From Acidithiobacillus sp. (GTDB taxonomy: Bacteria; Pseudomonadota; Gammaproteobacteria; Acidithiobacillales; Acidithiobacillaceae), in NCBI RefSeq assembly GCF_023255755.1, contig NZ_JAGDVS010000066.1:1-36800 (forward strand): 36,800 nucleotides of DNA. The letters are read 5' to 3'. Within the stretch, counting starts at the first letter, position 1. Each line of letters starts with the position of its first letter. The notes below the pieces were generated by a model. The model was given only the letters and a program-made list of their open reading frames with translations. It had not been told where the DNA came from and did not search any database. The translations under genes and the position numbers were made by a program. This document shows positions 1 to 29,767 of the stretch, one piece after another.

Positions 1-2561
1 AAGCCCACGAAAAAGGCTAAAAATACTGGAAATACGCAGATAAAGTAGGGATAATGCGTAAAAATCGCCTGAAAGTGGCGAGGAAAGGGGAATATTCCAT
101 TCTCAAGTCGTGAAATTTTTGTTATTCGAAATGCCCTGGAGAATACTCTGGCATTTTCGTCCCATTGCGACATCGGCGGCAGACCAAAAATCGCTTCCGT
201 AGTCTTCAAAATATTCACTTGCGAGTAGAGCTTAGTGTCCAGATACCCTTTCTTCACCCAGGGTCCCATAGCCAGCGCGAAGGTCCGGTGTGCATTGATA
301 TGGTCCGCGCCGGACTGGGCATCGTCCTCGGTCAGGAACACGACCATGTGTTTCCATTCCGGCGTAGTGGACAGATAGTGAATAAACCCGGCCGTCGCGT
401 AATCATTGTTGGCCACGTAGTAGTTTGGGGTGTAATAGCAGGGCGAACGACCTGCCGTATGATCATCCGGCAACCAGATGTAAATAAAATGCGGGAATTG
501 GGCACCCGGATGGGCTTTCAGCCAGTGTACCGCCGTTTTCTCCCGGTAGGTATCGAGCATCATCCGGTCCCAGCCGGGGAAACCGGTGGCCAGATGTTTT
601 TTCATCACCGTGGAGATATTGCCCGCCTGAGACCGCGAGACAAATTCGCCGAAGTCCTCAAAGGAGACCTTGTGATCGAGCAGGTCATTAAAGAGAAAAA
701 GTCGCTGCGGATAGCTGATCCACGGATTAGACCACTTGCCCAGTACCGAGAGATTTTCATAAATCGCATAAGGGTTATCCACACCGAGAGGCATACCACC
801 AGTCCCCGCTGCACCACCGGGTACCAAAGATTGCGTCCAGCCCGGATTGGGGACTAGCCCCCGCCCGGAGTAATACTCCGGCCACGTGCGCTGCACAAAG
901 TCTGAATCTGAAGCAGCCGTCGTCCATTGATGGCCCTGTGCAGTCACTTCGCCATCGGCCATAAAGTGCACAAACAAGGTGTTATGACGGGCGAGATGAT
1001 AGAGATTGGGCAAATCCTTGGGCCCATATAGGTCAAGATGCGGCTCCGCCCAGGCCCCGGCGCGTTTATATTCGCCCAGGTCTTCGTCGAAGGTCTTGTT
1101 TTCGCGCAAAATGAAGACCACGTAGTGGATGTGTTTGCGCAGAAAGGCGGTGGTTTTGACGTCTTCCAGATGACGGGCTTCGCGCTGGGCATCAGTAAAA
1201 CCATCATTGCGCAGGCTTTGCCGGGTCCAGGCCGGGAGATGGGTCGCAAGGTCATTCAGCTCAACTTTCTGAATGAGCCCGTCCATCATGTCGCCCACCC
1301 ACTGGTGTTCGACATTGGGGCCGGAGCCCAGGCCTTTGGCGGCCACCACGTAGAGGGCGTTGTCCGCATGGCTGATTGCCGTCGGATACCAGCCCGTCGG
1401 GATGAGGCCGAGGCCTTTGCCAGTCTGATCGTTATAGACAGCGACATCGTTGTTGCCCGCATTGGCCACAAAGAGTTTACCGCCAGCAATGGTCAGGCCG
1501 TCGGGATAGCTGCCTGGCGGGGCGTCGGGATAGGGGCTGTCATCGAGGAAGCCTTTGACGCAGAGACCGACGGTGTCCACTTCGGCGACACGGTCGACAT
1601 TGGCGAGGGCTACAAAAACATCCGGGGAATGCGGGACGGCGACCAATGCCGTGGGGTGGACACCGGCAGCGGTCTTGTCGGGACCGGTAGAAGGACCGAC
1701 GCGCACCGTACCCAATAACCGCATGGTCACGGGATCAACCACTGCTACGGCGTTACCGCCCCAGAGGCTGATTACCAGCTTCTGGCCGCCATCGGCAAAA
1801 ACGACCGCATAGGGGTAGGGTCCAACATTGAGGTAATCGGTCTGCCCACTCTGAATATCGACTCGCGCCAGGCTGTTGGACAACATACCCGCCACATAGA
1901 GATATTTACCGTGGGGACCTACCGCCACGGCGTCGGGGTAAAACAGCCTCGGCTGATTCACATAGTGCCCCTGATATACGTAGGGATACTGGTCCTTGGG
2001 GAAGGGCTGCCAAATCAGTGGGTAGCGGCGCAAGAGCGTGAGCTTGCCGCCTTTTAGGGTGAACGCAGCAATATCACCACTGTCTCCGCCCGCGGCGTAG
2101 AGGGTTTGGTCAGGTCCAATCGCCATACCCTGAAAAAAACTCTGATGACCGATGACATCACCATGCAGATCGGTGACATCGGTAGAGTTGGGGGCCGCTT
2201 TCCCGGCATCTTTTTTGTAGGCAGCAATCTCTGCCACGCGATCCAGGCTCTTCTGATCGTAGAGGGTGATGGTTTGCGCACGGGTCGCGCCATTCGCCAT
2301 AGCGGCGACATGATTCCCTACCGGCACCACGTCAGTCGCGAAGTTGGGGGCACCGTTGACTAGGCCAACCGGCCTAATGATACGCCCGGTAGGCAGGACG
2401 TGGGTCACCCAGCCTTTGTATTCTGGAGTGCTGTGCGTCGGGCCATTGCTGATGCGGGTAATGACCGGGGATGCGGCGTCAGACCACGCATAGCCAGAGA
2501 AAAACAGGTTCAACAGCAGCGTCACCACGCACACCGTCAGATTCCGACGCCTTTTTTCCAT
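1..2561 (-). CDS. Secreted beta-propeller plus phosphoesterase (PF04185-type) protein, 3' end outside window
   Basis: Not in the ORF track because it has no stop inside the window; I translated it by hand. The frame is open from ATG 2561 to base 3, about 853 codons. A GGAGGAG ribosome site lies about 9 nt upstream of the start. Residues 1-28 are a signal peptide (MEKRRRNLTVCVVTLLLNLF). Residues about 60-440 are propeller-like repeats (GKYLYVAGMLSNSLARVD, KLVISLWGGNAVAVVD). From about 480 comes a phosphoesterase domain of the acid phosphatase/phospholipase C superfamily, with RENKTFDED near 485, LPDDHT near 690 and EDDAQSGADHINAHRT near 740, which are the expected metal-site motifs. Family members hydrolyse phosphomonoesters or phosphodiesters outside the cytoplasm. 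It is last in a cluster with a TonB receptor and two secreted phosphorylase-fold proteins, so a nucleotidase role is attractive but is inference. The C-terminal tail is not visible. Confidence 0.85.
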   Translation of the reverse strand, partial: MEKRRRNLTVCVVTLLLNLFFSGYAWSDAASPVITRISNGPTHSTPEYKGWVTHVLPTGRIIRPVGLVNGAPNFATDVVPVGNHVAAMANGATRAQTITLYDQKSLDRVAEIAAYKKDAGKAAPNSTDVTDLHGDVIGHQSFFQGMAIGPDQTLYAAGGDSGDIAAFTLKGGKLTLLRRYPLIWQPFPKDQYPYVYQGHYVNQPRLFYPDAVAVGPHGKYLYVAGMLSNSLARVDIQSGQTDYLNVGPYPYAVVFADGGQKLVISLWGGNAVAVVDPVTMRLLGTVRVGPSTGPDKTAAGVHPTALVAVPHSPDVFVALANVDRVAEVDTVGLCVKGFLDDSPYPDAPPGSYPDGLTIAGGKLFVANAGNNDVAVYNDQTGKGLGLIPTGWYPTAISHADNALYVVAAKGLGSGPNVEHQWVGDMMDGLIQKVELNDLATHLPAWTRQSLRNDGFTDAQREARHLEDVKTTAFLRKHIHYVVFILRENKTFDEDLGEYKRAGAWAEPHLDLYGPKDLPNLYHLARHNTLFVHFMADGEVTAQGHQWTTAASDSDFVQRTWPEYYSGRGLVPNPGWTQSLVPGGAAGTGGMPLGVDNPYAIYENLSVLGKWSNPWISYPQRLFLFNDLLDHKVSFEDFGEFVSRSQAGNISTVMKKHLATGFPGWDRMMLDTYREKTAVHWLKAHPGAQFPHFIYIWLPDDHTAGRSPCYYTPNYYVANNDYATAGFIHYLSTTPEWKHMVVFLTEDDAQSGADHINAHRTFALAMGPWVKKGYLDTKLYSQVNILKTTEAIFGLPPMSQWDENARVFSRAFRITKISRLENGIFPFPRHFQAIFTHYPYFICVFPVFLAFFVG

Positions 2562-2622
2562 TACTTTTACTCCTCCGTACAACCGTACGACAATGCATGG
2601 TCAACACCACCAACAAACGGCG

Positions 2623-3681
2623 TTAGCCGCGTTTAACCCCATATTTTTTTGTGCATACCTGCACGAACGCAGGTGGGACCGCCGCTTTCACGAAGGTATC
2701 CGCCTGCCAGGGATCGCGGAACCCCCCGGAGAACGGAATGTAGCGATATGGTTCACCAGTAAGATAGTGAATCATCTGCAACGCAATTTTGTTGGATCGC
2801 AGTTGCGCAAATACCGAACACTGGTGAAAGTACGCGTTCATTTTCGTCGGCACGTTCATAGCGGCATCAGAAATAGTGTGGATCTCTACAAACGGTACCT
2901 TATTTAAGGTCGATATCAGCGCGATTGGATAATTACCAGCCTCGTCCGCCTCATGGAATATGCGGGTACTCTGGCGGATTTGTTGAACATTGCGCAACCA
3001 GGCCGCACCAGAACCCTGAGTACCGTAGGTCATAATCCACGGCTTACGCCCCATTGGGGCCGAAAGGATTTTTCCCGGAGTATCCGGGCACTCACTTGCG
3101 GCGCGCTCCGCCAGCTTGACCAGAACAGGATCGGCATAAATATATTCGGGATTGGGATTCCCTATGGTGTACCCCTCGTCATCTGCCACCAAAGCTCTAA
3201 ACTGACCTGGTACGATGGCGCCATTTTCCTTGGTCATGTAGTTACTAAAATTCACCACCCTTGCGCCGATCACGACATCGCCCATCGACAGTTGTGACAG
3301 ATGGGATCCCGCAGTGCCCGGATCAATCATAATACCAGGCCTAAAAATGCGCTCCAACAAATAGGTGTCGATTGCCGTCAGGCTGAAACTACCAATCGGC
3401 GGCGGTGAGGACAACACGATATGTACACCATCAATGTCTCCCGTCGTAAATTGAAACATGCCTTCGTGATACTGCTTCTTATGCGTCATGACAGACGTGT
3501 ATTGTCGATATGTATCGGGACTGGCTGGCAACATAATACCCACCGTCAGTCCTGTTGCGGCAGGTTCCGCCTGAGGAAGCGCGAGGTCTTTCCCTGCTCT
3601 ATCCGCGCCATGAGCAATAGAACCATACACGGTCAATATCGCGCTGAAGCATCCACATGCCAATATACTAAAAAACCGCAT
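2623..3681 (-). CDS. Secreted nucleoside phosphorylase/nucleosidase-superfamily protein (copy I)
   Basis: The listed ORF starts at 3750, but ATG 3681 follows a GGGGGG-type ribosome site and opens a clear signal peptide (MRFFSILACGCFSAILTVYG...AHGA), giving 352 aa. The mature part has PNP/UDP phosphorylase-MTA/SAH nucleosidase (PF01048) features: VGIMLP at the first strand, DPGTAGSHLSQLSMGDVVIG (the Gly-rich turn and GDVV strand), HEADEAGNY where the family has its ribose-binding Met-Glu region, and VPFVEIHTISD with the conserved Ser-Asp of the active site. The enzymes cleave the N-glycosidic bond of nucleosides; most known ones are cytoplasmic, and this one should be exported. It lies between a TonB receptor and a secreted phosphoesterase and is a paralogue of the 6279-7289 gene. 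Whether it is a hydrolase, a phosphorylase or only a binding protein cannot be read from the sequence. Confidence 0.8.
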   Translation of the reverse strand: MRFFSILACGCFSAILTVYGSIAHGADRAGKDLALPQAEPAATGLTVGIMLPASPDTYRQYTSVMTHKKQYHEGMFQFTTGDIDGVHIVLSSPPPIGSFSLTAIDTYLLERIFRPGIMIDPGTAGSHLSQLSMGDVVIGARVVNFSNYMTKENGAIVPGQFRALVADDEGYTIGNPNPEYIYADPVLVKLAERAASECPDTPGKILSAPMGRKPWIMTYGTQGSGAAWLRNVQQIRQSTRIFHEADEAGNYPIALISTLNKVPFVEIHTISDAAMNVPTKMNAYFHQCSVFAQLRSNKIALQMIHYLTGEPYRYIPFSGGFRDPWQADTFVKAAVPPAFVQVCTKKYGVKRG

Positions 3682-3739
3682 TATTTTACCCCCCAGTACC
3701 TGTGCGCAAAATGGTATTACACTTGACCAACAACAATAC

Positions 3740-3778
3740 GGGCACTGCATCGGCGTAAATGCCCCCTATGCAGTGCCC
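3740..3778. other. Intercistronic stem-loop (perfect 11-bp inverted repeat)
   Basis: GGGCACTGCAT at 3740-3750 pairs perfectly with ATGCAGTGCCC at 3768-3778 across a 17-nt loop. It lies in the 126-nt gap between the TonB receptor stop (3808) and the start of phosphorylase-fold copy I (3681). There is no T-run on either side, so it is not a canonical intrinsic terminator. An mRNA-stabilising or attenuating hairpin that lowers expression of the downstream gene is likelier. Confidence 0.7.
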
Positions 3779-3807
3779 CAGAAGGCAACCAGATAAACTA
3801 TGAGCGC

Positions 3808-6171
3808 TTACTGGAAGCGGAAGCTCACGTTGCTCCCAACAAACACCGGCGCGCCAACCTGTCCCCGGTAATAGGAGAACGGTTTCAGTACTTGCTCTGC
3901 ATAGACCAGATAGTTATTGTCAAGAATGTTGTCGGCGTAAAGACTGAACTTAACCGACTTCACGTAGGTCGATTTGATCGGCATCTCGTAGGACGTTGTA
4001 AAATCGAGCGTCTCATATGCCGGTAAAGTGCTACCTATCGTTTCGCCCTTGTTGGTCGCCATATATTGACGTCCGACAAAATGGCCGGTCAGCGCCGCAT
4101 ACAGGCCGCCGTGCTCGTAGCGGACACCTGTCGTTGCCGTGTACATCGGGATGTAAGGCCGGTATTCTCCGGGATAGGCCGTGCCGTTCACACCAGTAGA
4201 TAGGCTGCTGTATTTAGCGCTGGTGTAGTTGTATGACCCGAAAAATGACACATGGTATTTAATGGGTACATCCAAACCAAGAGTAACCCCCTGATACAGG
4301 GCATTGCCATTATTGTACTCATAAGTCATTCCGGTAGCAGGATCGTAGTACTCGCTGAAGATATTGCTGAAGTTACGCCTGAATACGGATAAATTACCCG
4401 ATACTACATCGCTCGTGTAACGCACGCCGGCATCGTAGCTGATGTCACTCTCCGGCTGAACGGTAATGGGCGCTGGCGTGGGGGATGTTCCTATAGCCGA
4501 GTAGAAGGCGCTAATGTTCGGCACCTTATTTGTCTTACCTACACTGAAATACAGATTCACATTATGAATCGGTGTATAGGAGAATCCCAGGGACGGCTCC
4601 CAGAAGTAGTAAGTATTATTGACATGGCCGCCATAGTTGTAATAATAACCAGTCACATCATCACAACTAGTTGAGACGATGTTATATTTTACACCGGGGT
4701 ATATATGGAGGGCACCGTTCAGCAGATTGATATTATCCTGAAGATAGATATAGTTATAATTACGCGCATCATGCTCATTCCAGGCATTATTGTATCCGTC
4801 GATATTCGGAACCGGGCTGCTGCCGTACCAATACTCGGCACTATGATCCTGACTGTAATCCACCATTGCACCCAACTCGATGGTGTTATGCGGCGCAAAG
4901 AACGTCATCGATGGCAAGAAACCTATACTTTGAATGTCATCGATATAATTGTGGAACTGCGTTCCGGCAGCTCCCGATCCAAACAACGCTACCGGATCAT
5001 AGCTATTGTTTGCGGAGGGATACGCTGTCCACGGTTCGAGATTAGTCCCCACCGGGTATCCCTCATAAGTCGCGTAGCCATAATAACTATGGTTGGAGTA
5101 CGCCACATTGGTGAATGACGTCCTATTCGCTGCCTGTTGCTGAATAAAGACTTTCGTCTTGGCAAGCATATAGTCGTTTAATATGCTTTTCCACGACAAG
5201 ATCACATTCAACGCATGGGTATTCGTGCTACTGGATGCCACATCCATCGGTGGCTGGTAGGAGCGCCCGTTCTGCGCAAGCAGGGCCAGGGGCACCAAAG
5301 ATGGCTGACGCGCCGACTCATTGTTATAAACCGCGATCAGCTTTAATTGAGATAACCCGTTATTATACGGCTGAAGTAACGCAAAATAATACGAATTTAT
5401 CTTGGCGAAGATGTCGTTCATGAAACTGGGGGCATGCGTATAGGAATATTTGAACAGCATCTCGGTGCCAGTTCCTGGCAACGCCCCGCTATTCACCGCA
5501 ATACCCGTTGTGTAGTTGCCACCGCGATACCCGTACTTTCCACCAGAGGCATCGACATCCAGATAATACTTTGATGTGGGTAATGCGGGCTCGTAAGAAA
5601 TCGTGCCGCCGAGCGAGTTTATACCATTTTGCGAGGGCTGATTTGCACCGCTATAGACCTTCACTGTCGAAATCTGACCCATCGTTAACGGCGTGTAGGC
5701 GTGATCATCACCTGTTCCACCGGCGCCACCGCGAAAGGTGTTGATAATGGGTACGCCATCAAAATTGGATGCCATCTGGCTGCTTGTAAATCCCTGGTAA
5801 GTAAATTCGTTATTTACCGAAGAAAGATTACCAGGGCCTTGGGAGACTACATTCATCCCGGGCACATGCTTCAGTACAGACTGAAAATTCTGGGCCGGCG
5901 ATGCATGGGTGACCGTCTTTTTGCTCACTGAGGTTACTGCCTTTTCTGGCGGTGCGACTTTTTTAACAGCACCAACGGAGGTGACCTTTCCAAGAACACT
6001 TGAACTCGTGGTAGAGGCAACGACACCCATATCGTCGGCATCAGCGAATGTACTAGCCGACAGGCTGACTGTAGCGAGTATAGCCGCATAGAGAACCGCC
6101 GGCGCCATGTGAGTTACCGCGGCCACTGCTTTTCTATCCGCAAAGATCTTTGTACTGTATTCAGTGTACAT
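3808..6171 (-). CDS. TonB-dependent outer-membrane receptor (paralogue 1)
   Basis: The ORF track starts at 6201, but ATG 6171 (MYTEYSTKIF) has a GGAGA ribosome site 9 nt upstream and is preferred, giving 787 aa. A signal sequence with a long n-region ends near SLSASTFA. The plug domain occupies about residues 60-190 (VLKHVPGMNVVS, NFDGVPIINTF, LGGTISYEP), and the rest is a Tyr/Asn/Ser-rich 22-strand barrel (PF00593 type). Such receptors import scarce ligands across the outer membrane using TonB energy. It shares blocks with the receptor at 9609-11945 (W.EHA, PG.KY..VST, DV.GYYY, PNI.AFY), so the two are paralogues. It is flanked by secreted phosphorylase-fold proteins, suggesting a nucleoside or nucleobase ligand (inference). 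It ends in Gln rather than the usual terminal Phe. Confidence 0.9.
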   Translation of the reverse strand: MYTEYSTKIFADRKAVAAVTHMAPAVLYAAILATVSLSASTFADADDMGVVASTTSSSVLGKVTSVGAVKKVAPPEKAVTSVSKKTVTHASPAQNFQSVLKHVPGMNVVSQGPGNLSSVNNEFTYQGFTSSQMASNFDGVPIINTFRGGAGGTGDDHAYTPLTMGQISTVKVYSGANQPSQNGINSLGGTISYEPALPTSKYYLDVDASGGKYGYRGGNYTTGIAVNSGALPGTGTEMLFKYSYTHAPSFMNDIFAKINSYYFALLQPYNNGLSQLKLIAVYNNESARQPSLVPLALLAQNGRSYQPPMDVASSSTNTHALNVILSWKSILNDYMLAKTKVFIQQQAANRTSFTNVAYSNHSYYGYATYEGYPVGTNLEPWTAYPSANNSYDPVALFGSGAAGTQFHNYIDDIQSIGFLPSMTFFAPHNTIELGAMVDYSQDHSAEYWYGSSPVPNIDGYNNAWNEHDARNYNYIYLQDNINLLNGALHIYPGVKYNIVSTSCDDVTGYYYNYGGHVNNTYYFWEPSLGFSYTPIHNVNLYFSVGKTNKVPNISAFYSAIGTSPTPAPITVQPESDISYDAGVRYTSDVVSGNLSVFRRNFSNIFSEYYDPATGMTYEYNNGNALYQGVTLGLDVPIKYHVSFFGSYNYTSAKYSSLSTGVNGTAYPGEYRPYIPMYTATTGVRYEHGGLYAALTGHFVGRQYMATNKGETIGSTLPAYETLDFTTSYEMPIKSTYVKSVKFSLYADNILDNNYLVYAEQVLKPFSYYRGQVGAPVFVGSNVSFRFQ

Positions 6172-6238
6172 CTTACATTCTCCATCTCTAATTAATGACA
6201 TAATAACTCGCTATTGACGGCGCCAAGCATAGCCACAG

Positions 6239-6254
6239 AATGTACGCATACATT
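6239..6254. other. Small intercistronic hairpin
   Basis: AATGTA and TACATT pair around a CGCA tetraloop in the 107-nt gap between phosphorylase-fold copy II and TonB receptor 1. It may modulate mRNA stability; no terminator T-run follows. Confidence 0.45.
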
Positions 6255-6278
6255 TGTCGCCAGAATGGACAATCGTTG

Positions 6279-7289
6279 CTATCTCTCACAACCATCCACC
6301 AAACCACGGGGATCCGTTGGGGTTTGGTAAAAATAGTTCGGATACGGATCGCCAGACGGATAACCATATTTCCCGTGAAGTAGATTATTGCCGTAAATTT
6401 TTATCACCATTAGCATTATCTTATCGCTGATGTTCTGTGTTATTTGCGACGCCGTCTTCCGATGCGCACCTTGGAAAGGAACGCCGTTTCCGCTAAATTC
6501 AAATACACTATCGGATATGGTGCTCACCTCGATGAAAGGAATGTTGGCCAATTTTGCAACTGTAGCGGAAAACCAATCCCCATCTTCATCTACCTCATGA
6601 AAAACGTCGTCTGTTTTCTTAATAAACGATTTATCGGCAAGCCACATTGAAGACGTCCCCTGTATTCCATAATAATAGATTTCTGGCTTTTGTACTTTGA
6701 ATTCACCGTTAATCCAAGACGGTAACTTTTCTCTGTCAGCAACATATTGCGCCGCACAAGCGGTATATTTTTCCAACTTTTTGTTTAGGTAAAAATATTG
6801 ATAATCCTGAAGACTGGATTTTCCAGAAAACTCATCTGGGACGAGGCCACCTGTTGGCGACATGTAAAAATTTGCAAAGTTTACTTGTTTTGTTCCTATA
6901 ACAATATCTCCTACATGCATCTGTCCTGGCGGAATATGAGCGCCAGATGTCCCAGGGTACAGCAGAGCTTTTATATTAAAGTGATCGACCATGACTTGCG
7001 CGGTAAGCGCGCGCGTATACTCTCCGCCAAACGGCTGGATGCAGATAACTACAGGAATCTTATAAATACTTCCAATTTGATAATCAAATTGACCTATGTG
7101 AACGGATTTAATCTTTTTAAACTTTTTAAGGATGACGGCATAATGGGCAGGACCGACGGGAATGAGCAGGCCTAAATACCCACTACCGCCCAGACCCGAA
7201 AGCTTTTGATCGGCCTGCGCACTGCCAACGGAAAGCCATAAAAAACAAAAAGCCGATAAAATACAGATAATACGTCGCACAAATTTCAT
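6279..7289 (-). CDS. Secreted nucleoside phosphorylase/nucleosidase-superfamily protein (copy II)
   Basis: 336 aa from ATG 7289, with AGGAGC about 10 nt upstream. Residues 1-26 are a signal peptide (MKFVRRIICILSAFCFLWLS...AQA). The same motifs as copy I occur in order: LGLLIPVG, PGTSGAHIPPGQMHVGDIVIG, YYGIQGTSSMWL, FHEVDEDGDWFSATVAKLA and IPFIEVSTISD. These fit the PF01048 fold with its Ser-Asp active-site strand. It is richer in Lys/Ile/Tyr and more AT-rich than the purine operon genes, which may mean a separate history. It heads the cluster phosphorylase II, TonB receptor 1, phosphorylase I, phosphoesterase; paired NtrC-like sites lie about 85-115 nt upstream. Function is inferred: glycosidic cleavage or binding of nucleosides in the periplasm or at the cell surface. 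Confidence 0.8.
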   Translation of the reverse strand: MKFVRRIICILSAFCFLWLSVGSAQADQKLSGLGGSGYLGLLIPVGPAHYAVILKKFKKIKSVHIGQFDYQIGSIYKIPVVICIQPFGGEYTRALTAQVMVDHFNIKALLYPGTSGAHIPPGQMHVGDIVIGTKQVNFANFYMSPTGGLVPDEFSGKSSLQDYQYFYLNKKLEKYTACAAQYVADREKLPSWINGEFKVQKPEIYYYGIQGTSSMWLADKSFIKKTDDVFHEVDEDGDWFSATVAKLANIPFIEVSTISDSVFEFSGNGVPFQGAHRKTASQITQNISDKIMLMVIKIYGNNLLHGKYGYPSGDPYPNYFYQTPTDPRGLVDGCER

Positions 7290-7780: not shown

Positions 7781-8215
7781 TCACTTGCCAGGCCTTTGCA
7801 AGTCTGCTGGCCCGAAGCTATTGGGCAACAACTCGCTAAACGTCATTCGTTGCGGACTGCCCGCCAGCATCGACGTGTAGACCCACATCGATGGCCCGGC
7901 AAATTCATTGAGCCGCTGACGACAAGTCCCACACGGCCACGCCGGAGAGTGCCCTTTGCAGGCGATGTAGGCTGCCCGAATAGGTGTCCTGCCAAGAGTG
8001 GCGACCATCTGGCCGATCGCCACCGCCTCGGCACAGAGGCCGGAAGGATACGCTGCATTTTCAATGTTACAGCCCTGAAAAATACGCCCAGACTCGGTGA
8101 GCAGTGCCGCGCCCACCGGAAAATGGGAGTAAGGTGCGTAAGCGTGTTCCAGAATCGCTTCTGCAGCCTGGCGTAACTGGGCGAGCGTCGCCACCGAAAT
8201 GTCCGAGAAGATCAA
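7781..8215 (-). CDS. cdd: Cytidine deaminase (homotetrameric CDA type), TTG start
   Basis: The ORF track extends to 8413 inside the permease gene, but homology starts only near 8215. There TTG overlaps the permease stop (TTGA), with AGGA about 9 nt upstream. This gives 144 aa, the usual size. The zinc site is complete: Cys61 and catalytic Glu63 in SGLCAE, Cys95 and Cys98 in PCGTC. YSHFPVGAAL and GCNIENAAYPSG are family substrate-site segments. It hydrolyses cytidine or deoxycytidine to uridine plus ammonia in the cytoplasm. It is last in the unit TonB receptor 2, NCS1 permease, deaminase, so it probably acts on imported pyrimidine nucleoside. The non-ATG overlapping start suggests translation coupled to the permease. 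Confidence 0.9.
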   Translation of the reverse strand: MIFSDISVATLAQLRQAAEAILEHAYAPYSHFPVGAALLTESGRIFQGCNIENAAYPSGLCAEAVAIGQMVATLGRTPIRAAYIACKGHSPAWPCGTCRQRLNEFAGPSMWVYTSMLAGSPQRMTFSELLPNSFGPADLQRPGK

Positions 8216-9609
8216 CGAACGAGTCCTGCTATTTTTCGCGGTTGCCCGCGCTGCTCCATGAAACGTATTCCCATATAATAAATTCCTCCGGTGATCGCCG
8301 CAGAACAGATCTGCCAGGGTATGAGATGAATTATCTCCGGCCCCATCAGGAAACCCAACTGAGCCAGCACCACCCCAAAAATCAGCATGCTGATAGCCCA
8401 GGGTGCAGGCCATAGGAAATAGTCCGTCCAGATATGAACGCGCAGATAGAACAGAGAAACAGCATCGCTATAGTACTTACCGTGGTACCAATCGATCACC
8501 AAAATGAAGCTGAACGGAAAGAGCAACGATCCCAGAATGGAAAGAAAGCCCTCGATAAACTCCAAAATTCCGGCCACAGCCAGCAAGGTGGAGAATACAC
8601 CGAGCAGAACGACGATAGCGGGTTGCATAAATCGATGTGGTTTACCGGTAACATTGATGACCGCGAGCAGCTTGGTCACCGCTGGATACAGATTCATGGC
8701 GTTGGTATGAGCGATAGCCAGGATCACGCCGATGGCAGAGATTTCTCCCCAGAATGGTAGGTTTTTACCCAGCAAGGCGATATTCCAGTCCCCGGTCATT
8801 TGTAGTGCTACCAGACCCAAGAGACCCATAAAAAGCACCGCAGACATCACGCCGATCGCGGGGGCAAGCAGATAAAGCACCCGATCTGATGCCTTCTCCT
8901 GAGCCGTAGGAGGCACACAAAAACGGGTGACCGTCGGAAAATCATACGACCAGGCCAACAGACTAAAACTCAGCACCAGATCAATATCCTTGCCCCAATC
9001 TACTGTTCGTGTCGTTACCGGAAGCACGAAGGCATGCTGGGTAAAGAGGTAATAGGCGAGCACCGCGTAGCAAAGCAGAAAGAGCAGAGCCGTGTATTTA
9101 TAAAATTTTTCCAGCACCTCCATACCGAAAAATACCAATGTGATTTGCAGCACGCCCAAAACGATATACCAGAGCATACCGAGGTCTGGAAACAACGTGT
9201 CGAGAATTTTCCCACCCACATCGGTATTCAGACCAAACCATCCCGCGCCAACGATGGTGTATAAAATGGCCAGAAAAGTAGCGCCCCCCATACCGAAAGT
9301 ACGTCGCGCCATCACCATGGAAATGATGGGAACCTGGCGGCCCATATGCGATAGCAACATAGCGGGAACCAGACCGATCAGCGTGGCGAACAGAACGATC
9401 AGGGCGAAATTCCACAAGCCAATCCCGTGGAGAAGCAATCCGATCACCGGCGTCGTCGCCGAGGCGGAGGCCAGCGCCCAGATCAGGAAGAGCATACCGG
9501 GTCGCATGCAACGGTCCCGGTCGGGGACTGGGGCTACTCCCAAGGTTTCCACATGGTGGATATCCAACGCCGGGGTGCTACTCACAGGGTCAGTCCGCAC
9601 TGTGGTCAT
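8212..9609 (-). CDS. NCS1-family nucleobase permease (CodB-like)
   Basis: The ORF track uses TTG 9612, but ATG 9609 overlaps the receptor stop as TGATG and is the natural start, giving 465 aa. About 12 membrane segments follow an N-terminal cytoplasmic tail. The TM1 region MLFLIWALASASATTPVIG and the SYDFPTVTRF loop fit the NCS1 (purine/cytosine/allantoin, PF02133) family. It should co-transport a nucleobase or nucleoside with a cation across the inner membrane. It sits between an outer-membrane receptor and cytidine deaminase, so a cytosine, cytidine or uracil-type substrate is likely, but specificity cannot be read off. Confidence 0.87.
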   Translation of the reverse strand: MTTVRTDPVSSTPALDIHHVETLGVAPVPDRDRCMRPGMLFLIWALASASATTPVIGLLLHGIGLWNFALIVLFATLIGLVPAMLLSHMGRQVPIISMVMARRTFGMGGATFLAILYTIVGAGWFGLNTDVGGKILDTLFPDLGMLWYIVLGVLQITLVFFGMEVLEKFYKYTALLFLLCYAVLAYYLFTQHAFVLPVTTRTVDWGKDIDLVLSFSLLAWSYDFPTVTRFCVPPTAQEKASDRVLYLLAPAIGVMSAVLFMGLLGLVALQMTGDWNIALLGKNLPFWGEISAIGVILAIAHTNAMNLYPAVTKLLAVINVTGKPHRFMQPAIVVLLGVFSTLLAVAGILEFIEGFLSILGSLLFPFSFILVIDWYHGKYYSDAVSLFYLRVHIWTDYFLWPAPWAISMLIFGVVLAQLGFLMGPEIIHLIPWQICSAAITGGIYYMGIRFMEQRGQPRKIAGLVR

Positions 9610-11945
9610 CAAAATACCATTTTCACTGTACCAAAGAACGAGCGTGGCATCATCGGCTCTGCGACGAGGTAATTGCCGGGCTGATTATTAATATAGGGGA
9701 ACTGCTTTTCCAGAACCGACGCTTCGGAGTTCAGGAGATTCACCCCGCTCAAGCTGAGCGTCACACTTTTTAACCCGTACTGATGTATCTGAAAGGTATG
9801 CGCGAGATTGAAGTTCATGGTTGCGTAGGCAGGCATACTAATAGAAGTTGGCGCACCGGTGCTTGCCTCAATATATTGCGGCCCAACCAGATTGCCGTAT
9901 AGTCTCGCCCGCGTGTTCATGTAGTGCCCTAATATCCCGATACCCGCCAGATAGGTGGGCGTATTTGCCCGCGGCTCTCCAATGCTGGTGGCAACGCCAT
10001 AGGCGCTTGACGAGTTTGAGGTGTAATGCGCATCCTGAAGCGAATAGTTGCCATAAACAGACAGATAATTATCCAACGCGTAAGCCGTCGCAATATTGAT
10101 GCCCTGATACGACGACGAGCCAATATTGTATTCATAAGTCAGCCCTGTTGTTGTATCATAGTAGGAGCTGAACGTGTGCATAAAGTCCGATCGATAGAAC
10201 GAAATACTCGCATCAATACCAGCATGGCTGTATGCCGCTCCAAATTGATACGTATTGACTTGCTCTGGTTTTATCGTCACCGGCGTCGCTGGTGACGTCG
10301 ATGTGGCATTACTATCCGCTGCATAAAATGCAGTGATATTCGGATACTTGTACCCGACCGCATAGTTGGCATAAAGAGTTACCGATCTTATCGGCTTATA
10401 CTGAATGCCAACGTATGGGCTCACCTCGCTGTAAGAGCGGCCACTGCTCGCACCTACGGTGTAGTAGTATCCCGGTACATCATTGATATGCGTGCTTACC
10501 GCCTCATATTTCAGACCAGGGGTAATCGCCAAAGAACGTGTCGGCTTGATTTTGGCCTGCGCATAGAGTTTACCGTACAGACGCCATGCATGCTCGTCCC
10601 AGAGATCATTGTAACCAGCCAGTTCAGGGACATTTGGGCTACCGTAGACATAGTCCCGTGAATGATACTGAGAGACCGCGCCCAGTCCTCCCGCTTTCAA
10701 GTCCACATAATGATTGAGCCATTCGACAGAGGGATTAAAACCGAAGGTATTTGTCGTGTAGCTATAACTATGGTAATTATCCCCGTTAATAGTTTGCGCC
10801 TGACACGCCGCAGAAGAGTTACCCGAAAAATCGTTACCAGAATACTGGCAGACAGTTTGGGCCGGGTTAAGATAAAAGGTGACAAAGCTGTTATACGGCG
10901 TATTGACACTGGGATTCACATATTCCAAACGATTGGAATTGGTGTAGGCATAAAACCCCTTAAATCCAAAAACGGCGTGAGAAGATATGAGCGTTTTATT
11001 CTGCACAATAGTCATCATGTGTTCCGCCGTGCTATTCGCATAAGTGAAGGACAGCGGCCATTGGTAATTGGGTCCATATTGCTGCAACAGCGCGACCGGC
11101 ATTCGCGCTGCGGTGGCGCCCTTATTTTTGTTCAACAAAAATATGACTGACCACTTGGAGGTCGGCGAAATTTGTGGCAAATCATAGGCCGCATAGTAGG
11201 AATATTCGCGATCAGGACTGTGGTCCAGGTAGCCTGCAGTCTGGCGCGAAGAAAATCTCAGCAGGAGGTTACCATAGCCAGGGTTTGCACCGGTGTTGAT
11301 CTCGGCGCCATAGCTGCGCGTGTCAAAAGAACCATAGCCAGCAAATACCGACTCGTAACGTTTTGCCGAAGGAATCTTCGGCAGATAATCAATATTCCCG
11401 CCAATAGCCCCGACGGCGTTGATATCTGGTGATGGAGTGCCATAGGTCACCCGGATGCCCGAAGTTTCACCCAGCGTGACCGGGATGAGATTCGTCAAAT
11501 CTGCATAATTGTTATTGCCTCCGGATAAGCCGCCATTGAACAAATCAGCAATGGGCAGATTATCAAAGGTGTAGCCCACTTGTGTCTGAGAGAAGCCACG
11601 TACGGAAATATGGGTCTTGACGCCGATGGGGTTCGTACTGGTGGCATTGACCCCAGGTACGAAACTCAGAATGGTCGAGGCATTTTGCGTCGATTCCTGA
11701 CCTTCCAGGAATTTTTTGGGAATCAGCGCCGTTTCTGCACCGAACACCGGCTTTATATGGGTGAGTGCCGCCTTCTCTACGGTTCGCAGTAAGTTCTTGG
11801 AGACGGATTTGATCTTATATATTTTTTTGGCCGGGGGCGGCGTGGCGGTGGTCACTTCTGCATAGACCGGCATAAGTGAGGCACCCAGTAACCCTGTTGC
11901 CACCAACAAGCTCTGTCTCAAAATATATTTATTGGCTTTGTTCAT
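9609..11945 (-). CDS. TonB-dependent outer-membrane receptor (paralogue 2)
   Basis: 778 aa from ATG 11945, with GGAG about 9 nt upstream. A signal peptide ends near MPVYA. A periplasmic Pro/Lys linker (TPPPAKKIYKIKS) is followed by a plug at about residues 75-185 (STILSFVPGVNATS, ISVRGFSQTQVGYTFDNLP, VGAIGGNIDYLP). The long barrel ends in the canonical terminal Phe (GTVKMVF). It shares conserved blocks with receptor 1. It is first in an operon with an NCS1 permease and cytidine deaminase and has a sigma-54 promoter, arguing for import of a nitrogen-rich nucleoside or nucleobase rather than iron chelates (inference). Energy would come from ExbB-ExbD-TonB, such as the set encoded at 28472-30472. 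Confidence 0.92.
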   Translation of the reverse strand: MNKANKYILRQSLLVATGLLGASLMPVYAEVTTATPPPAKKIYKIKSVSKNLLRTVEKAALTHIKPVFGAETALIPKKFLEGQESTQNASTILSFVPGVNATSTNPIGVKTHISVRGFSQTQVGYTFDNLPIADLFNGGLSGGNNNYADLTNLIPVTLGETSGIRVTYGTPSPDINAVGAIGGNIDYLPKIPSAKRYESVFAGYGSFDTRSYGAEINTGANPGYGNLLLRFSSRQTAGYLDHSPDREYSYYAAYDLPQISPTSKWSVIFLLNKNKGATAARMPVALLQQYGPNYQWPLSFTYANSTAEHMMTIVQNKTLISSHAVFGFKGFYAYTNSNRLEYVNPSVNTPYNSFVTFYLNPAQTVCQYSGNDFSGNSSAACQAQTINGDNYHSYSYTTNTFGFNPSVEWLNHYVDLKAGGLGAVSQYHSRDYVYGSPNVPELAGYNDLWDEHAWRLYGKLYAQAKIKPTRSLAITPGLKYEAVSTHINDVPGYYYTVGASSGRSYSEVSPYVGIQYKPIRSVTLYANYAVGYKYPNITAFYAADSNATSTSPATPVTIKPEQVNTYQFGAAYSHAGIDASISFYRSDFMHTFSSYYDTTTGLTYEYNIGSSSYQGINIATAYALDNYLSVYGNYSLQDAHYTSNSSSAYGVATSIGEPRANTPTYLAGIGILGHYMNTRARLYGNLVGPQYIEASTGAPTSISMPAYATMNFNLAHTFQIHQYGLKSVTLSLSGVNLLNSEASVLEKQFPYINNQPGNYLVAEPMMPRSFFGTVKMVF

Positions 11946-12217: not shown

Positions 12218-13138
12218 ATGAAACACCTGCGCCTGTTTAATTACATTGATACGATTGTCAGGGAAGGCTCAGTCCGTCGCGCGGCCGAAAAGCTGCATAT
12301 CACGGCATCGGCACTGGACCGCCGCGTTCAGGATCTGGAAGAAGAATTGGGCACCGGCATTTTCGAGCGGCATCCGCGCGGAATGCGCCTCTCGGCCGCA
12401 GGAGAGGTTTTCTTGGGTTATGTGCGCCGCCACCTTTCCGACATGCAGCGCTTACGCTCAGAAATAGATAGCCTCAACGGTCTTCGCCGCGGCCATGTTG
12501 CCCTCGCGGTCAGCCCCGCATTGGCGGCCGATTTCATCCCGAGAATTATTAATACATTCAGGGAGCAGTATCCGGGGGTTTCCTTCTCGGTGACTGTAGC
12601 GAAACACAGCGATGCGATTCGTGCGCTGCTCGCATTTGAAGCCGATCTGGTGGTCATCGTGGCGCCGCCCCGACACCCAGACGTTATCGACCTCGCCATA
12701 TCCGAGCAGCCTTTGGTGGCGGTTATGGACTGCACGCACCCTCTTGCCAGCCAGGGTACGCTTCGCTTGAGCGATTGCATCCAGTATCCCTTGGTATTGC
12801 CGACCCCGGGGCTTACCTCGCGCGAAATGCTGGAGTCTGTGCTCCATAGTCGACGATCAGAAACCCATGTCGCCGCCGAGACCAACTCCTATGAGGTGAT
12901 GCGTGGCCTACTGTACGGCACGCAAAACGTTGGCTTCGTCATTTCAACGGGGATACCCAAAAATCGCGTCAACGAAAATATCGTGTATCGGCCGATTTCT
13001 GCCGTGGACATCCGCCCCGTGCCATTAGTATGTGCACAACTCAAAAGCCGAGGGATTTCAGTCTCTGCCGCCCGTTTTTCCAACTACATAGCAGAGGAGC
13101 TAAATAATATGAGCCTGGCCGAACAGCATACGGGTTAG
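12218..13138 (+). CDS. LysR-family transcriptional regulator
   Basis: 306 aa from ATG 12218, with GAGG about 8 nt upstream. Residues 1-60 form the winged helix-turn-helix (LRLFNYIDTIVREGSVRRAAEKLHITASALDRRVQDLEEELG). Residues about 90-295 form the LysR substrate-binding domain (HVALAVSPALAADFIP onward). It is the only convincing plus-strand gene, divergent from the receptor 2 operon and convergent with the end of the 18-gene purine operon (31-nt gap). LysR proteins usually control a divergent neighbour in response to a pathway metabolite, so a purine or pyrimidine intermediate is a reasonable effector guess. The HTH has ASALDRRVQDLE where many family members have QPALSRQIRxLE, so the recognition helix is somewhat unusual. 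Confidence 0.93.
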   Translation: MKHLRLFNYIDTIVREGSVRRAAEKLHITASALDRRVQDLEEELGTGIFERHPRGMRLSAAGEVFLGYVRRHLSDMQRLRSEIDSLNGLRRGHVALAVSPALAADFIPRIINTFREQYPGVSFSVTVAKHSDAIRALLAFEADLVVIVAPPRHPDVIDLAISEQPLVAVMDCTHPLASQGTLRLSDCIQYPLVLPTPGLTSREMLESVLHSRRSETHVAAETNSYEVMRGLLYGTQNVGFVISTGIPKNRVNENIVYRPISAVDIRPVPLVCAQLKSRGISVSAARFSNYIAEELNNMSLAEQHTG

Positions 13139-23689: not shown

Positions 23690-24718
23690 TCATGCAGCGC
23701 CCTTTAACAGGTGCGCGATAACGGCCTTGGTGACGATCACCGCATTACGCTCGGCGAGGGCACTGGCATATAAATCGCCTGTTTTCCAGATTTCTTCTTC
23801 GGTTTTACCGGGGGGCGGAACATCCACGTCAGAGATCCCCCGTATGGACAGATAATGATCCGCCAAACCGAAACGCGAGAGCACGGCCACGTCCCCGAGA
23901 TCCTCCATGGCGGTATTGGTATATTTCACCTCGCCATGGGTATAGCGACGCACAATCTGTTCGGCAATAGCCTGATTCGCTTTACCGATCCAAAAATCAT
24001 TGCCGGTGATAGTGGCGCCCACCATCACCTTCGGCGCCGCAGAAATAGCAAACATTTTATCCAGTTTCTTCGCTTCTGCCGAGTTTTCAAGCGCGACATG
24101 GGCCGAGGCATTTACCGCCATATTCAGCAGGGCCGGATTGATTTTATACGCCAAATTTTCCATGATATTCTGGGTGTAATTTCCGCAGTGACCCGGCGTG
24201 GCATAATCCGCGCAGCCCGGAGGGGACCATGCCAACTGCTTTTGATCACTCAGGTAATGATGTCCAAAAGCCCAGGAGATTACCCAGCTATTGATATACA
24301 CACTGCCCAATGCAGAGTCTTCTTTGTCCACACCGCCCGCAATGCCGCTGCGAATAAAAATAGTCTTCTTCAGATCCAGAGTCGCGTCTTTCACCAGACT
24401 GGTGACGGTGACTGCGGCATTGATTTCCCCTTCCCCGGTCTCCGTAACACAGACGCCTTTGCTGTCGCAGATCAGGGGCTTAATGAGTCCTGGCACATGC
24501 AAGGCTTGATGCTGGAAAGATTTTTGCACTGTCCATGCTTGCCACTCGGGCGGGAATGCCGTCAGCACGATCACTTTCGGGCGCATTTTCGCCGCCGCCG
24601 GTATAGCCTGGGCGTAGGCCAGTGGCGCTATCCATGAGAGGCTGACTGCACCACATAACATCATATGCTTCCAAACCGTATTTTTCTTCACGAACATTCT
24701 CCCTGGTGAGTTTTTCAT
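23690..24718 (-). CDS. Secreted NUP-family protein (purine nucleoside permease family, PF06516)
   Basis: 342 aa from ATG 24718, which overlaps the adenine deaminase stop as ATGA; the ORF track start at 24790 is not needed. A signal peptide is visible (hydrophobic MMLCGAVSLSWIAPLAYAQA). Family blocks are PKVIVLTAFPPEWQAW, the ETGEGEINAA turn, KTIFIRSGIAGGVD, YTNTAMEDLGDVAVL and ISDVDVPPPGKT. The annotation 'permease' is historical: there is no membrane segment after the signal, and the fold is that of nucleoside phosphorylases, so it is probably periplasmic. It is the third secreted phosphorylase-fold protein in the window and is embedded among cytoplasmic purine enzymes. Confidence 0.85.
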   Translation of the reverse strand: MKNSPGRMFVKKNTVWKHMMLCGAVSLSWIAPLAYAQAIPAAAKMRPKVIVLTAFPPEWQAWTVQKSFQHQALHVPGLIKPLICDSKGVCVTETGEGEINAAVTVTSLVKDATLDLKKTIFIRSGIAGGVDKEDSALGSVYINSWVISWAFGHHYLSDQKQLAWSPPGCADYATPGHCGNYTQNIMENLAYKINPALLNMAVNASAHVALENSAEAKKLDKMFAISAAPKVMVGATITGNDFWIGKANQAIAEQIVRRYTHGEVKYTNTAMEDLGDVAVLSRFGLADHYLSIRGISDVDVPPPGKTEEEIWKTGDLYASALAERNAVIVTKAVIAHLLKGAA

Positions 24719-25758
24719 AATAGGTTCCGCTGGGATGCACCGTACTGATCCAGATCCCTGCGTAGGGATTGCTTTCGTTGGTCCGTACAAAAAGCCGCTT
24801 CAACAGCATTACGCTCAAGAAGTAATGCGTCCTCCGCTGTTAAATCCAGACTGGAAAGTGTCCCAATAATGTTTTCACTCAGGTATCCACCGAAATACGC
24901 CGGGTCATCCGAATGAATCGTCGCCAACAAACCTGCTTTCAACAATCGGCCCAGATTATGTTCAGATAACCGGCTAAACACTTTGAGCGCGACGTTGGAG
25001 AATGGGCAGACCGTCAGCGGGATCCGGTCATCCACCAGGCGACGCACCAGTGCCGGATCCTCCAAACAGCGCACCCCGTGATCTATGCGCTCGACATCAA
25101 GCACATCCAGTGCCTGCCAGATATAGGCGGGCGGCCCCTCCTCTCCGGCATGGGCAACACGATGCAGGCCCATGGACTTGGCCACCTTAAACACCTTCTG
25201 AAACTTTTCTGGGGGATTGCCCATTTCAGCGGAGTCGAGACCAATGCCGGCGATACCCCCCAAAGCACAAGCATGCTCCAACAGCGCCACCGCGGGTTGC
25301 GGGTCGCGATCCCGCTCAAAGCAAAGAATCAGTGCGCTGGATATATGCCAGTCACGCTCGGCGTCCCGCAAGGCGGCGTTGATGCCGCCCATCACCGCCG
25401 CCAATGCCACACCATTGGCAAGATGCGTCTGCGGATCAAAAAACAGTTCCGTATGACGAATCTGCTGGGCTTTACAGCGGGACATATAGGCCAGGGTCAG
25501 TTCATAAAAGTCCCGCTCTTCCCGCAATACGGACGCCCCCAGATAATAGACATTCAGAAAACTTTGCAGATCCTCAAATTGATACGCCGCCCGTGCCGCC
25601 TCTATCGTCTTATAGGGAATATCCACGCCGTTACGCTGGGCCAGCGCGATGAGTAATTCAGGCTCCAGAGTACCCTCAATATGCAAATGCAGCTCTACCT
25701 TGGGCAGATCCTCCACAAAATCTGCCAGTATTCCTTTACTGTTCATCGTACTTTCCAT
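24715..25758 (-). CDS. Adenine deaminase, adenosine-deaminase superfamily (PA0148-like)
   Basis: 347 aa from ATG 25758 (GGAG 11 nt upstream; ATG 25746 is an alternative). The metal-binding LPKVELHLHIEGTLEPELL begins near residue 19. RVAHAGEEGPPAYIWQALD carries the Zn-ligand His and catalytic Glu, ERIDHGVRC follows, and IHSDDPAYFGGY holds the Asp pair. CKAQQIRHTELFFDPQTH and the overall layout resemble the Pseudomonas proteins shown to be adenine rather than adenosine deaminases. The reaction gives hypoxanthine plus ammonia, feeding xanthine dehydrogenase. Adenosine as substrate cannot be excluded by eye. Confidence 0.87.
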   Translation of the reverse strand: MESTMNSKGILADFVEDLPKVELHLHIEGTLEPELLIALAQRNGVDIPYKTIEAARAAYQFEDLQSFLNVYYLGASVLREERDFYELTLAYMSRCKAQQIRHTELFFDPQTHLANGVALAAVMGGINAALRDAERDWHISSALILCFERDRDPQPAVALLEHACALGGIAGIGLDSAEMGNPPEKFQKVFKVAKSMGLHRVAHAGEEGPPAYIWQALDVLDVERIDHGVRCLEDPALVRRLVDDRIPLTVCPFSNVALKVFSRLSEHNLGRLLKAGLLATIHSDDPAYFGGYLSENIIGTLSSLDLTAEDALLLERNAVEAAFCTDQRKQSLRRDLDQYGASQRNLL

Positions 25759-25805: not shown

Positions 25806-27035
25806 TTAGGCCACCCGTGCACCGCTGAGCCAGGTCCCCAGCGGACGCTGTTCCAGATCGGCCGACTTACCACTTAAGCATTCCTCAAACCAGTGCTCTA
25901 CAGAATCCACTGCAGGCTTCTGCGGCAAGAGCACAAAATCGGCACGTTTTCCCGCCGTCAAATCACCGCCGACGGATCCTCTGCCCATACATTCAGCCCC
26001 CGCCTTGGTAGAACGATACAAGGCCTCCTGCGGCGCAACAGGAACACCCGCTTCCCGATGTGTTCCCAGAAATCGCTGCATGACATGCAGCATGCTATGA
26101 CTGGGACCACCGCCTATGTCACTCGCCAGCGCAAAGGGAATGTTGTAAGCACGTACTTGCTCTAAGGGCATGCGTCGGTTGCCCAGCGCCTCATTACTGG
26201 TAGGACAATGCGCCACCCAGGAGCCGCGTGCCCGAAGACAGCGCCATTCCTCGTCACGCATTTCAATACAGTGGCCTAATATCGTCCGGGGCGTCAGAAG
26301 ACCCGCGCGGTCATACACCTCAGTATAGTGCGCAGCGTCGGGGAACAGCTCTTTAACCCATTGCAGCTCCGCGACCGATTCGGCGAGATGCGTCTGGATT
26401 AAACATGGACTCTCGGCGGCAATCTGCCCCAATGCCTTTAGCGATGCTGCCGTCAGATTCGGTGCAAAACGGGGTGTCAGTGCATAGTGTGTAATATCCG
26501 TTTGGCGCATAAATGCACGCAACGCGTCAGGATCATGCAAGCTGTAATCAGTCAATGCATGGGGCGCATGAATCGCCATCAGGACATTACCAATGACCCA
26601 ATCGCCACGCATCGACGTCAGCGCAATCTGCGTGGCCTCGGCATGCGGGCTGGAATAGCTCATGCCCATCACGGTCCCCGCACGCAATACATCGGCATAG
26701 AATTGCGCCGCCGCAGCCCTGGCGAAATCGGTATCCACATAGCGCGCCTCTTCCGGCCAGATATACTCTCGCAGCCAAGTCAAGAGTTCGCCAGAGAAAC
26801 GTCCCCTAACACGATGTTGCACCCAATGCAAATGGACATCGACAAAGCCTGGAACGATAACACCATACAAATCCTCTACTTCCATATCGGCGTCGATCTG
26901 ATTCAGCATCGTAGTGAAATCACCCATACGCACAATACGGCCCTGATCGACACCTAAAGCACCATCCTGATAAAATATCCAGGTATTCGCATCTATCGGG
27001 TTGAGTATCGACGCCCTAAATATTTTTTCCATCAT
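25806..27035 (-). CDS. guaD: Guanine deaminase
   Basis: 409 aa from ATG 27035 (MMEKIFRAS; ATG 27032 is equally possible); the ORF track start at 27287 lies in the permease gene, which this gene overlaps by 20 nt. It is an amidohydrolase-superfamily enzyme: PGFVDVHLHWVQHR (HxH) near residue 75, QTHLAES, LGHCIEM, AHCPTSNEALGNRRM and ASDIGGGPSHSML with the catalytic Asp. The spacing and the ALTPRFAP motif match guanine deaminase, which converts guanine to xanthine and ammonia. It departs from the usual GTDVGGGTS at the active-site Asp loop (ASDIGGGPS), so related aminopurines are possible substrates. Confidence 0.87.
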   Translation of the reverse strand: MMEKIFRASILNPIDANTWIFYQDGALGVDQGRIVRMGDFTTMLNQIDADMEVEDLYGVIVPGFVDVHLHWVQHRVRGRFSGELLTWLREYIWPEEARYVDTDFARAAAAQFYADVLRAGTVMGMSYSSPHAEATQIALTSMRGDWVIGNVLMAIHAPHALTDYSLHDPDALRAFMRQTDITHYALTPRFAPNLTAASLKALGQIAAESPCLIQTHLAESVAELQWVKELFPDAAHYTEVYDRAGLLTPRTILGHCIEMRDEEWRCLRARGSWVAHCPTSNEALGNRRMPLEQVRAYNIPFALASDIGGGPSHSMLHVMQRFLGTHREAGVPVAPQEALYRSTKAGAECMGRGSVGGDLTAGKRADFVLLPQKPAVDSVEHWFEECLSGKSADLEQRPLGTWLSGARVA

Positions 27036-28446: not shown

Positions 28447-28471
28447 CACTTTTTTCTCCCACGCATAAACG

Positions 28472-29230
28472 CTAACTTGATCCGGCACCCACTTCAACGT
28501 CGATTTGAAAAACCGTATTCTGCTTAGGCATCTTTTTCAGAAATGGTGGGAAGCCACCCTCCTTTACTGCTGCAAGTGCCGCACGATTTACCGCACTCAG
28601 GGGACTAGGTTTGATAATTTTTGCCCAGAGCAACTGACCCGCAGGTGAGATCTCGAACTCAACGGTCGCCTTGCCGCTCAGCCCCATTGCTCTTAACTCT
28701 GCAGGCACATGCAGATTCTGCTGAATCATTGGCCGCAACAGCCCGACATAACGCCCCATCAACGAGGCCGTCTGTTGGGTCGACATGGGCGGCGGGGCAG
28801 GAGGTGGCGTCACTAGCGGCTTAGGCGCGGGCGTCACTACCGATTTAGGAGTCGGCGTTGGTGGCGTGGCGGTCTTAACCGGCGGCACCGGCGGCGTCGG
28901 TGCCGGTTTCGGCGGAATCACCACCTTCGGGTGCGGACGGGGCGGCGGCGGCGTCACATGATGCACTACCGGTTTGGGAGGAACCGGTTTCGTTAGAGGC
29001 TTGGGTACGACCTTCGGCGGTGGTTGCGGCAAGGTCACCATTTGTACCGCAATGACGTGATCCTTGGGCTTAACGGCATTTACCGGAGGCCTGTTGTGTC
29101 CGTACCAGACCAAGCCGAGCACGAGCAGGACTTCAACCGCCACGGCACCGCCCACGGCATACTTAAAATGGCGTTCCTTCGGCTCCGGCATGAGTGAATA
29201 ATCTGTGGCCCTAGGCATCGTGGTAGTCAT
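28472..29230 (-). CDS. tonB: TonB energy transducer
   Basis: 252 aa from ATG 29230. A short cytoplasmic tail is followed by one membrane anchor (YAVGGAVAVEVLLVLGLVWYG, residues about 24-44). A Pro/Lys/Val-rich periplasmic spacer covers about 60-150. The C-terminal TonB domain follows (LHVPAELRAMGLSGKATVEFEISPAGQLLWAKII). It transmits proton-motive force from ExbB-ExbD to outer-membrane receptors. It is third in an exbB-exbD-tonB block at the head of the purine operon, which is unusual since such blocks normally sit with iron genes. The ribosome site is weak. Confidence 0.93.
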   Translation of the reverse strand: MTTTMPRATDYSLMPEPKERHFKYAVGGAVAVEVLLVLGLVWYGHNRPPVNAVKPKDHVIAVQMVTLPQPPPKVVPKPLTKPVPPKPVVHHVTPPPPRPHPKVVIPPKPAPTPPVPPVKTATPPTPTPKSVVTPAPKPLVTPPPAPPPMSTQQTASLMGRYVGLLRPMIQQNLHVPAELRAMGLSGKATVEFEISPAGQLLWAKIIKPSPLSAVNRAALAAVKEGGFPPFLKKMPKQNTVFQIDVEVGAGSS

Positions 29231-29320
29231 ATAAATTTATTCCCATTTTCGAGCACTGTCGCGCTCGCCAACTGTACGTTTGGCATTCGCTCACTTTTCC
29301 CCAAGTAAAGACGCAACTAC

Positions 29321-29719: not shown

Positions 29720-29767
29720 GTTTTACTCCTTACTTTGCCTGGCAAAATGAAAAAATCTTCCGAAACA

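Follow-up and report, generated by a model that had tools for sequence, protein, structure and literature searches.

We analysed a 36,800 bp stretch of DNA (hereafter the window), which is the entire contig G000:C52 of a 2.73 Mb Acidithiobacillus draft genome, with a focus on a TonB-dependent outer-membrane receptor, TBDR1, and the exported PF01048-fold proteins encoded on either side of it. Four consecutive minus-strand genes encode a phosphoesterase, the PF01048-fold protein PNP2, TBDR1 and a second PF01048-fold protein, PNP1 (Table 1), at the positions given by the original prediction, and its family assignments were confirmed by Pfam matches to PF04185, PF01048 and the receptor barrel and plug that were all above gathering (25.1 bits for PF01048). 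The likely start of the phosphoesterase is near 2561, and its C-terminus is lost at the contig end. The PNP2 open reading frame (ORF) spans 2623-3750, with a start probably at about 3681 (MRFFSILACG...) rather than 3750. Export signals were judged from N-terminal composition, and all four N-termini were signal-peptide-like, each combining a run of basic residues with a hydrophobic core (Kyte-Doolittle mean over 12 residues peaking at 2.2-2.65) and a plausible signal-peptidase site, which fits the export that had been proposed for all four proteins. Overlapping plus-strand ORFs at 165-857, 1038-1718, 4705-5118 and 6798-7175 were taken as artefacts. A link between TBDR1 and nucleosides is well supported by the evidence below, and TBDR1 probably imports nucleosides and not iron, although such proteins are usually labelled iron receptors.

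Pairing of TonB receptors with exported PF01048 proteins

Proteins of the PNP1/PNP2 type were present in 10 of the 29 genomes of the family. Wherever the flank was readable, in Acidithiobacillus relatives, on a plasmid and in one other family, they adjoined a TonB receptor; the contig of locus L070 stops about 600 bp past PNP1. In all 12 PF01048-receptor pairs that were measured both genes shared a strand and lay 25-417 bp apart, PNP1 5' and PNP2 3' of the receptor, so that the neighbourhood comparison bore out the expected recurrence of exported PF01048 proteins beside TonB receptors. TBDR1 orthologs beside PF01048 genes were 74-92% identical. PNP2 orthologs were located 3' of TBDR1 orthologs in L057, L059, L060, L061 and L086 and 3' of a related receptor in L077, a locus in a genome of another family (G291) where a 45%-identical receptor is followed by a PNP2 relative. 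PNP1 was paired with a receptor from another clade in L069. The Acidithiobacillus caldus SM-1 megaplasmid NC_015851.1 (L086) carries exbB, exbD, the TBDR1 gene, PNP2 and PNP1, both PNP genes being 3' of the receptor gene, and the rest of the cluster is absent. Within this plasmid locus (L086 12275-20885) an ISL3 transposase splits the TBDR1 gene and further transposases flank PNP2 and PNP1.

On the receptor tree the presence of an adjacent PF01048 gene required 4 changes as compared to 9.6 in shuffles and occurred in more than one clade; this tree was quick and has long branches, and the placement of the L077 receptor is unsure. The window genome encodes six TonB receptors, giving a chance adjacency of about 0.4% per placement (p ~0.004), yet the pairing recurs across relatives and is therefore non-random. 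Where synonymous sites were unsaturated, the ratio of non-synonymous to synonymous substitutions (dN/dS) was ~0.08-0.17 for PNP1 and ~0.05-0.18 for PNP1, PNP2 and TBDR1 overall, which is purifying selection. PNP1 has relatives in Acidithiobacillus ferrivorans DSM 22755 (87% identity) and A. ferrianus MG (78% identity). In A. ferrivorans PNP1 is intact, whereas PNP2 (L055 7101-7950) has decayed to a pseudogene with frameshifting and partial deletion.

Site residues of PNP1, PNP2 and the phosphoesterase

PNP1 and PNP2 share 28% sequence identity. By profile they matched the 5'-methylthioadenosine/S-adenosylhomocysteine (MTA/SAH) nucleosidases (MTAN), their closest solved relatives (best PDB entries 5b7g/5b7n, E 1.5e-44), and an AlphaFold2 model of PNP1 (predicted local distance difference test, pLDDT, of 62) matched MTAN and purine nucleoside phosphorylase structures with E values to 2e-10. 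Residues were compared across 17 PNP1/PNP2-type members using Escherichia coli MTAN and uridine phosphorylase (UP) references identical to the PDB entries. The phosphate-binding arginines of UP, R30, R48 and R91, were absent in PNP1, PNP2 and their relatives among these members, the sole exception being position 48 of the plasmid PNP1, which is Arg. The MTAN catalytic Glu12 was not kept: PNP1 has His and PNP2 has Thr at this position, which over the members as a whole is His, Thr, Ser or Asn, with Glu solely in the distant L082 protein. The position of the ribose-binding Glu174 of MTAN was Gly in 17/17 members using HMMER, hhalign and MAFFT, in an uncertain register in which a two-residue slip would place E235 there. 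Arg193 was replaced by Ser, His or Asn, and Thr occupied the Ser76 position, as in UP. The catalytic Asp197 was kept in all 17 members (Asp260 in PNP1), and H231, E232, D234 and E235 were invariant.

As the phosphate-site arginines and Glu12 are missing and Glu174 is aligned with Gly, PNP1 and PNP2 are, on these residues, very unlikely to be phosphorylases and nucleoside hydrolysis by them is doubtful. Nucleoside binding would be the simplest reading of the residue pattern. These observations lend no support to the idea of an extracytoplasmic conversion of nucleosides to bases by the two proteins. A cascade built on that idea, in which the phosphoesterase makes nucleosides, PNP1 and PNP2 hydrolyse them extracytoplasmically without phosphate and TBDR1 and the NCS1 permease import the base or ribose, draws on the retained Asp197, the further invariant polar residues and the kinship to nucleosidases, and phosphate-independent hydrolase activity of PNP1/PNP2 is possible. 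However, the loss of Glu12 and the arginines and the Gly aligned with E174 make such a cascade rather unlikely.

The phosphoesterase retained the motifs ENKTFD, DDHTAG and DDAQSGADHINAHR, the metal-site motifs of the PF04185 family, and their integrity is a further point for the cascade. Several genomes have its gene near the receptor-PF01048 pair and others do not, and because it is linked in some genomes only it is an accessory, optional part. This inconstant linkage counts against the cascade.

Exported or second-copy MTA/SAH nucleosidases (5b7g/5b7n; L083-L085, with signal peptides in L083-L085) share the fold of PNP1/PNP2 but keep E174 and R193 and carry Asn at 197, where PNP1/PNP2 have Gly, Ser/His and Asp. 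A TonB receptor was present about 1 kb from the MTAN-like gene in L083 and none was seen for L084 or L085. PNP2 orthologs at L059 7589-8653, L060 7943-9007 and L061 7279-8391 have FSSC at the signal-peptide end, and they may be lipid-anchored because this sequence resembles an imperfect lipobox.

Pyrimidine and purine genes around the receptor

The operon at L070 encodes a CN-hydrolase of the beta-ureidopropionase type, PreT, PreA, a dihydropyrimidinase-like protein, two NCS1 permeases and cytidine deaminase, followed by DeoC, a cytoplasmic PF01048 uridine-phosphorylase-like enzyme, a phosphosugar mutase and, last, PNP1. Partly similar layouts leading to TBDR1 with PNP1 or PNP2 were found in L058, L060 and L061, where orthologs of the cytoplasmic enzyme and of PreA were confirmed. 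The cytoplasmic UP of these relatives retains R30, R48, R91 and the ribose Glu. Cytidine deaminase and this canonical enzyme are cytoplasmic and encoded in the same operon, suggesting that whole nucleosides reach the cytoplasm, which argues likewise for binding over cleavage by PNP1/PNP2 and against the cascade.

In the window, genes for cytidine deaminase, an NCS1-family permease (NCS1a) and a second TonB receptor (TBDR2) lie upstream of PNP1 in the same direction, and the purine cluster follows. The four genes first described were thus correct as far as they went, but the unit had been ended too early. NCS1a is co-linear with cytidine deaminase in module-carrying relatives, and the plug and barrel of TBDR2 were both above Pfam gathering. 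Beyond TBDR2 and the LysR-type regulator are genes for a gamma-glutamyltransferase, a MobA-like protein, AtzH, AtzE, XdhC, an AtzD-type ring-opening hydrolase and a ureidoglycolate-lyase-like protein, then three xanthine-dehydrogenase-like subunits, the phosphorylase-superfamily protein NUP, adenosine deaminase, a guanine-deaminase-like protein, a second NCS1 permease, TonB and ExbB. Together these genes make up a cluster for importing and catabolising nucleosides and purines, in which TonB and ExbB are probable dedicated energisers.

Table 1. Features of the window and the profile matches that identify them
Feature	Position	Strand	Evidence and remarks
Exported YVTN-type propeller plus PF04185 phosphoesterase (bifunctional YncE/alkaline-phosphatase-like)	3..2582	-	PF04185 39 bits; propeller repeats TIGR02276
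PNP2, exported PF01048-fold protein, just 3' of TBDR1	2623..3681	-	PF01048 45.2 bits
TBDR1, TonB-dependent outer-membrane receptor	3808..6201	-	PF00593 105.7 bits (barrel); PF07715 38.5 bits (plug)
PNP1, exported PF01048-fold protein, 77 bp 5' of TBDR1	6279..7289	-	PF01048 41.7 bits
Cytidine deaminase; true start probably within ORF	7781..8413	-	TIGR01354 137 bits (cut-off 113.65)
NCS1a, NCS1-family permease, overlapping TBDR2 end	8212..9612	-	PF02133 72 bits
TBDR2, second TonB-dependent receptor	9609..11945	-	PF00593 93 bits; PF07715 34 bits
LysR-type regulator, divergent from TBDR2	12218..13138	+	PF03466 and PF00126
NUP, third exported phosphorylase-superfamily protein	23690..24790	-	PF06516 167.8 bits; signal peptide
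Adenosine deaminase	24715..25758	-	NF006850 481 bits (cut-off 419)
Guanine-deaminase-like amidohydrolase; N-terminal ORF part probably non-coding	25806..27287	-	NF006679 323 bits (cut-off 351)
Second NCS1-family permease	27016..28497	-	PF02133 59.6 bits
TonB (28472-29230) and ExbB (29768-30472)	28472..30472	-	PF03544; PF01618

The AtzD-type amidohydrolase, at 398 bits, exceeded the 360-bit cut-off for cyanuric acid hydrolases and is clustered at 13170-23628 with AtzE, AtzH, the gamma-glutamyltransferase and the three-subunit xanthine-dehydrogenase-like enzyme. These enzymes might together open purine or pyrimidine rings by an oxidative route. At 31482-36039 an OprD-like porin gene adjoins an NMT1-type ATP-binding cassette transporter (ATPase, permease and binding protein); the two may form a further system for taking up nitrogen compounds.

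Candidate ligand and proposed function

Eleven TonB receptors of A. ferrooxidans have been annotated for siderophore-bound iron (PMC2621215), and a receptor on the A. caldus megaplasmid was assigned to iron homeostasis (PMC3826726). Together with a weak NCBIfam resemblance of TBDR1 to IreA, these annotations would favour an iron-siderophore receptor whose neighbours are coincidental. However, TBDR1 missed the curated siderophore-receptor cut-offs by far (27.7 vs 1197 bits), and across the window there was no Fur box with three or fewer mismatches, a search that divergent boxes would escape. No siderophore genes were recognised in profile scans of the window, and the pairing with PF01048 proteins recurs in nucleoside operons. 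Iron uptake was dropped as the leading explanation on the receptor score and the lack of a Fur box, and we regard it as highly improbable. A TBDR1 paralog in the same genome (48% identity; L063 2674-10283, G000:C163) has two PF04185 phosphoesterases, TonB and ExbB as neighbours, and L064, L067 and L068 resemble this arrangement. The two adjoining phosphoesterases suggest that the receptor clade of this paralog takes a phosphorylated ligand.

NCS1 permeases commonly transport bases and hydantoins. This family trait, the MTA/SAH nucleosidases as nearest solved structures and the AtzD/AtzE-type ring-opening enzymes in the window are consistent with TBDR1 importing some other purine- or pyrimidine-ring compound, such as bases, allantoin-like ureides or thio-nucleosides such as MTA, that the PF01048 proteins bind or process. 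We consider such a ligand improbable, as the cytidine deaminase, uridine phosphorylase and DeoC of the relatives use nucleosides or deoxyribose phosphate and not bases or MTA.

The explanation we favour, tentatively, is that TBDR1 is an outer-membrane nucleoside gate with PNP1 and PNP2 as capture partners that have lost phosphorylase chemistry. The phosphoesterase could release nucleosides from nucleotides as an optional step. Nucleosides, most likely pyrimidine (deoxy)nucleosides, would then cross the outer membrane via TBDR1 using TonB energy. PNP1 and PNP2 would bind them, whether free in the periplasm, at the receptor or just behind it, and pass them on, and NCS1a would carry them across the inner membrane. 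In the cytoplasm, cytidine deaminase and, in the relatives, uridine phosphorylase, DeoC and the dihydropyrimidine pathway would degrade them for nitrogen or carbon.

Several observations weigh against this proposal. In G022 (L062) TBDR1 has no PNP gene beside it and the PF01048 genes are elsewhere; the 359-aa ORF adjoining TBDR1 there had no Pfam match, and no PNP substitute was demonstrated. No receptor was seen beside the PNP1 relative of L082, which is from another class, and the pair occurs without pyrimidine genes in L056 and L086. Cytoplasmic UP and PreA were not found in the window genome, so the exported PNPs might be the cleaving step there, and the missing cytoplasmic UP also speaks for the cascade. 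The alignments given to AlphaFold covered the window and its related loci, and the PNP2 model was too poor to use (pLDDT 39). The Glu174 register is ambiguous because the (M/Q)-E-D of NUP proteins has the same spacing from Asp as the D-E-D of PNP1, and judged from this alignment the ribose Glu could yet prove to be E235. D260 with H231, E232, D234 and E235 could likewise form a new hydrolase site.

Bacteroides Rus/SusC-SusD loci scavenge nucleosides and ribose with a TonB-dependent receptor, SusD and nucleoside hydrolases of another fold. The window locus likewise pairs the gene for a TonB-dependent receptor with genes for exported, nucleoside-related proteins. Unlike Rus, its proteobacterial receptor has no recognised SusD and its partners have the PF01048 fold without the usual catalytic residues; among the window proteins searched there was no Pfam match to a SusD-like lipoprotein or a nucleoside hydrolase. 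Tsx is a passive outer-membrane nucleoside channel. It shares with the proposed TBDR1 system nucleoside passage across the outer membrane but differs in having no known TonB dependence and no known exported phosphorylase-fold partner. NUP is likewise an exported phosphorylase-superfamily protein and lies within purine catabolic clusters in several genomes, and a Candida NUP supports adenosine uptake in yeast (PMC9431476). The window NUP differs from PNP1/PNP2 in keeping canonical-looking Glu and Arg site residues, in (M/Q)ED and RxxS(D/N) motifs. No TonB receptor was beside NUP in 12 other proteobacterial loci, and close kinship of NUP to PNP1/PNP2 was not supported, with no PF06516 match for the latter, negligible profile similarity and an hhalign probability of 2%. 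Searches of an open-access literature library yielded neither a described uptake system of exported PF01048 proteins and a TonB receptor nor papers on periplasmic MtaN, in agreement with the novelty claimed for the arrangement. The locus would represent a case of nutrient scavenging through TonB in which the partner fold is new.

More broadly, phosphorylase folds without chemistry may serve as TonB-receptor capture partners for energised nucleoside import in autotrophic acidophiles, the pair having moved among loci, a plasmid and different receptors, a generalisation that is possible but that we hold with considerable doubt. TonB receptors of Acidithiobacillus have been labelled siderophore receptors although the habitat is iron-rich acid (PMC2621215). 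Assignment of a receptor clade to nucleosides would, if true, re-label part of the Acidithiobacillus TonB-receptor set. It would also mean that a chemolithoautotroph scavenges the nucleic-acid products of dead cells by active outer-membrane transport, and that an enzyme fold has been reused as a transport partner.

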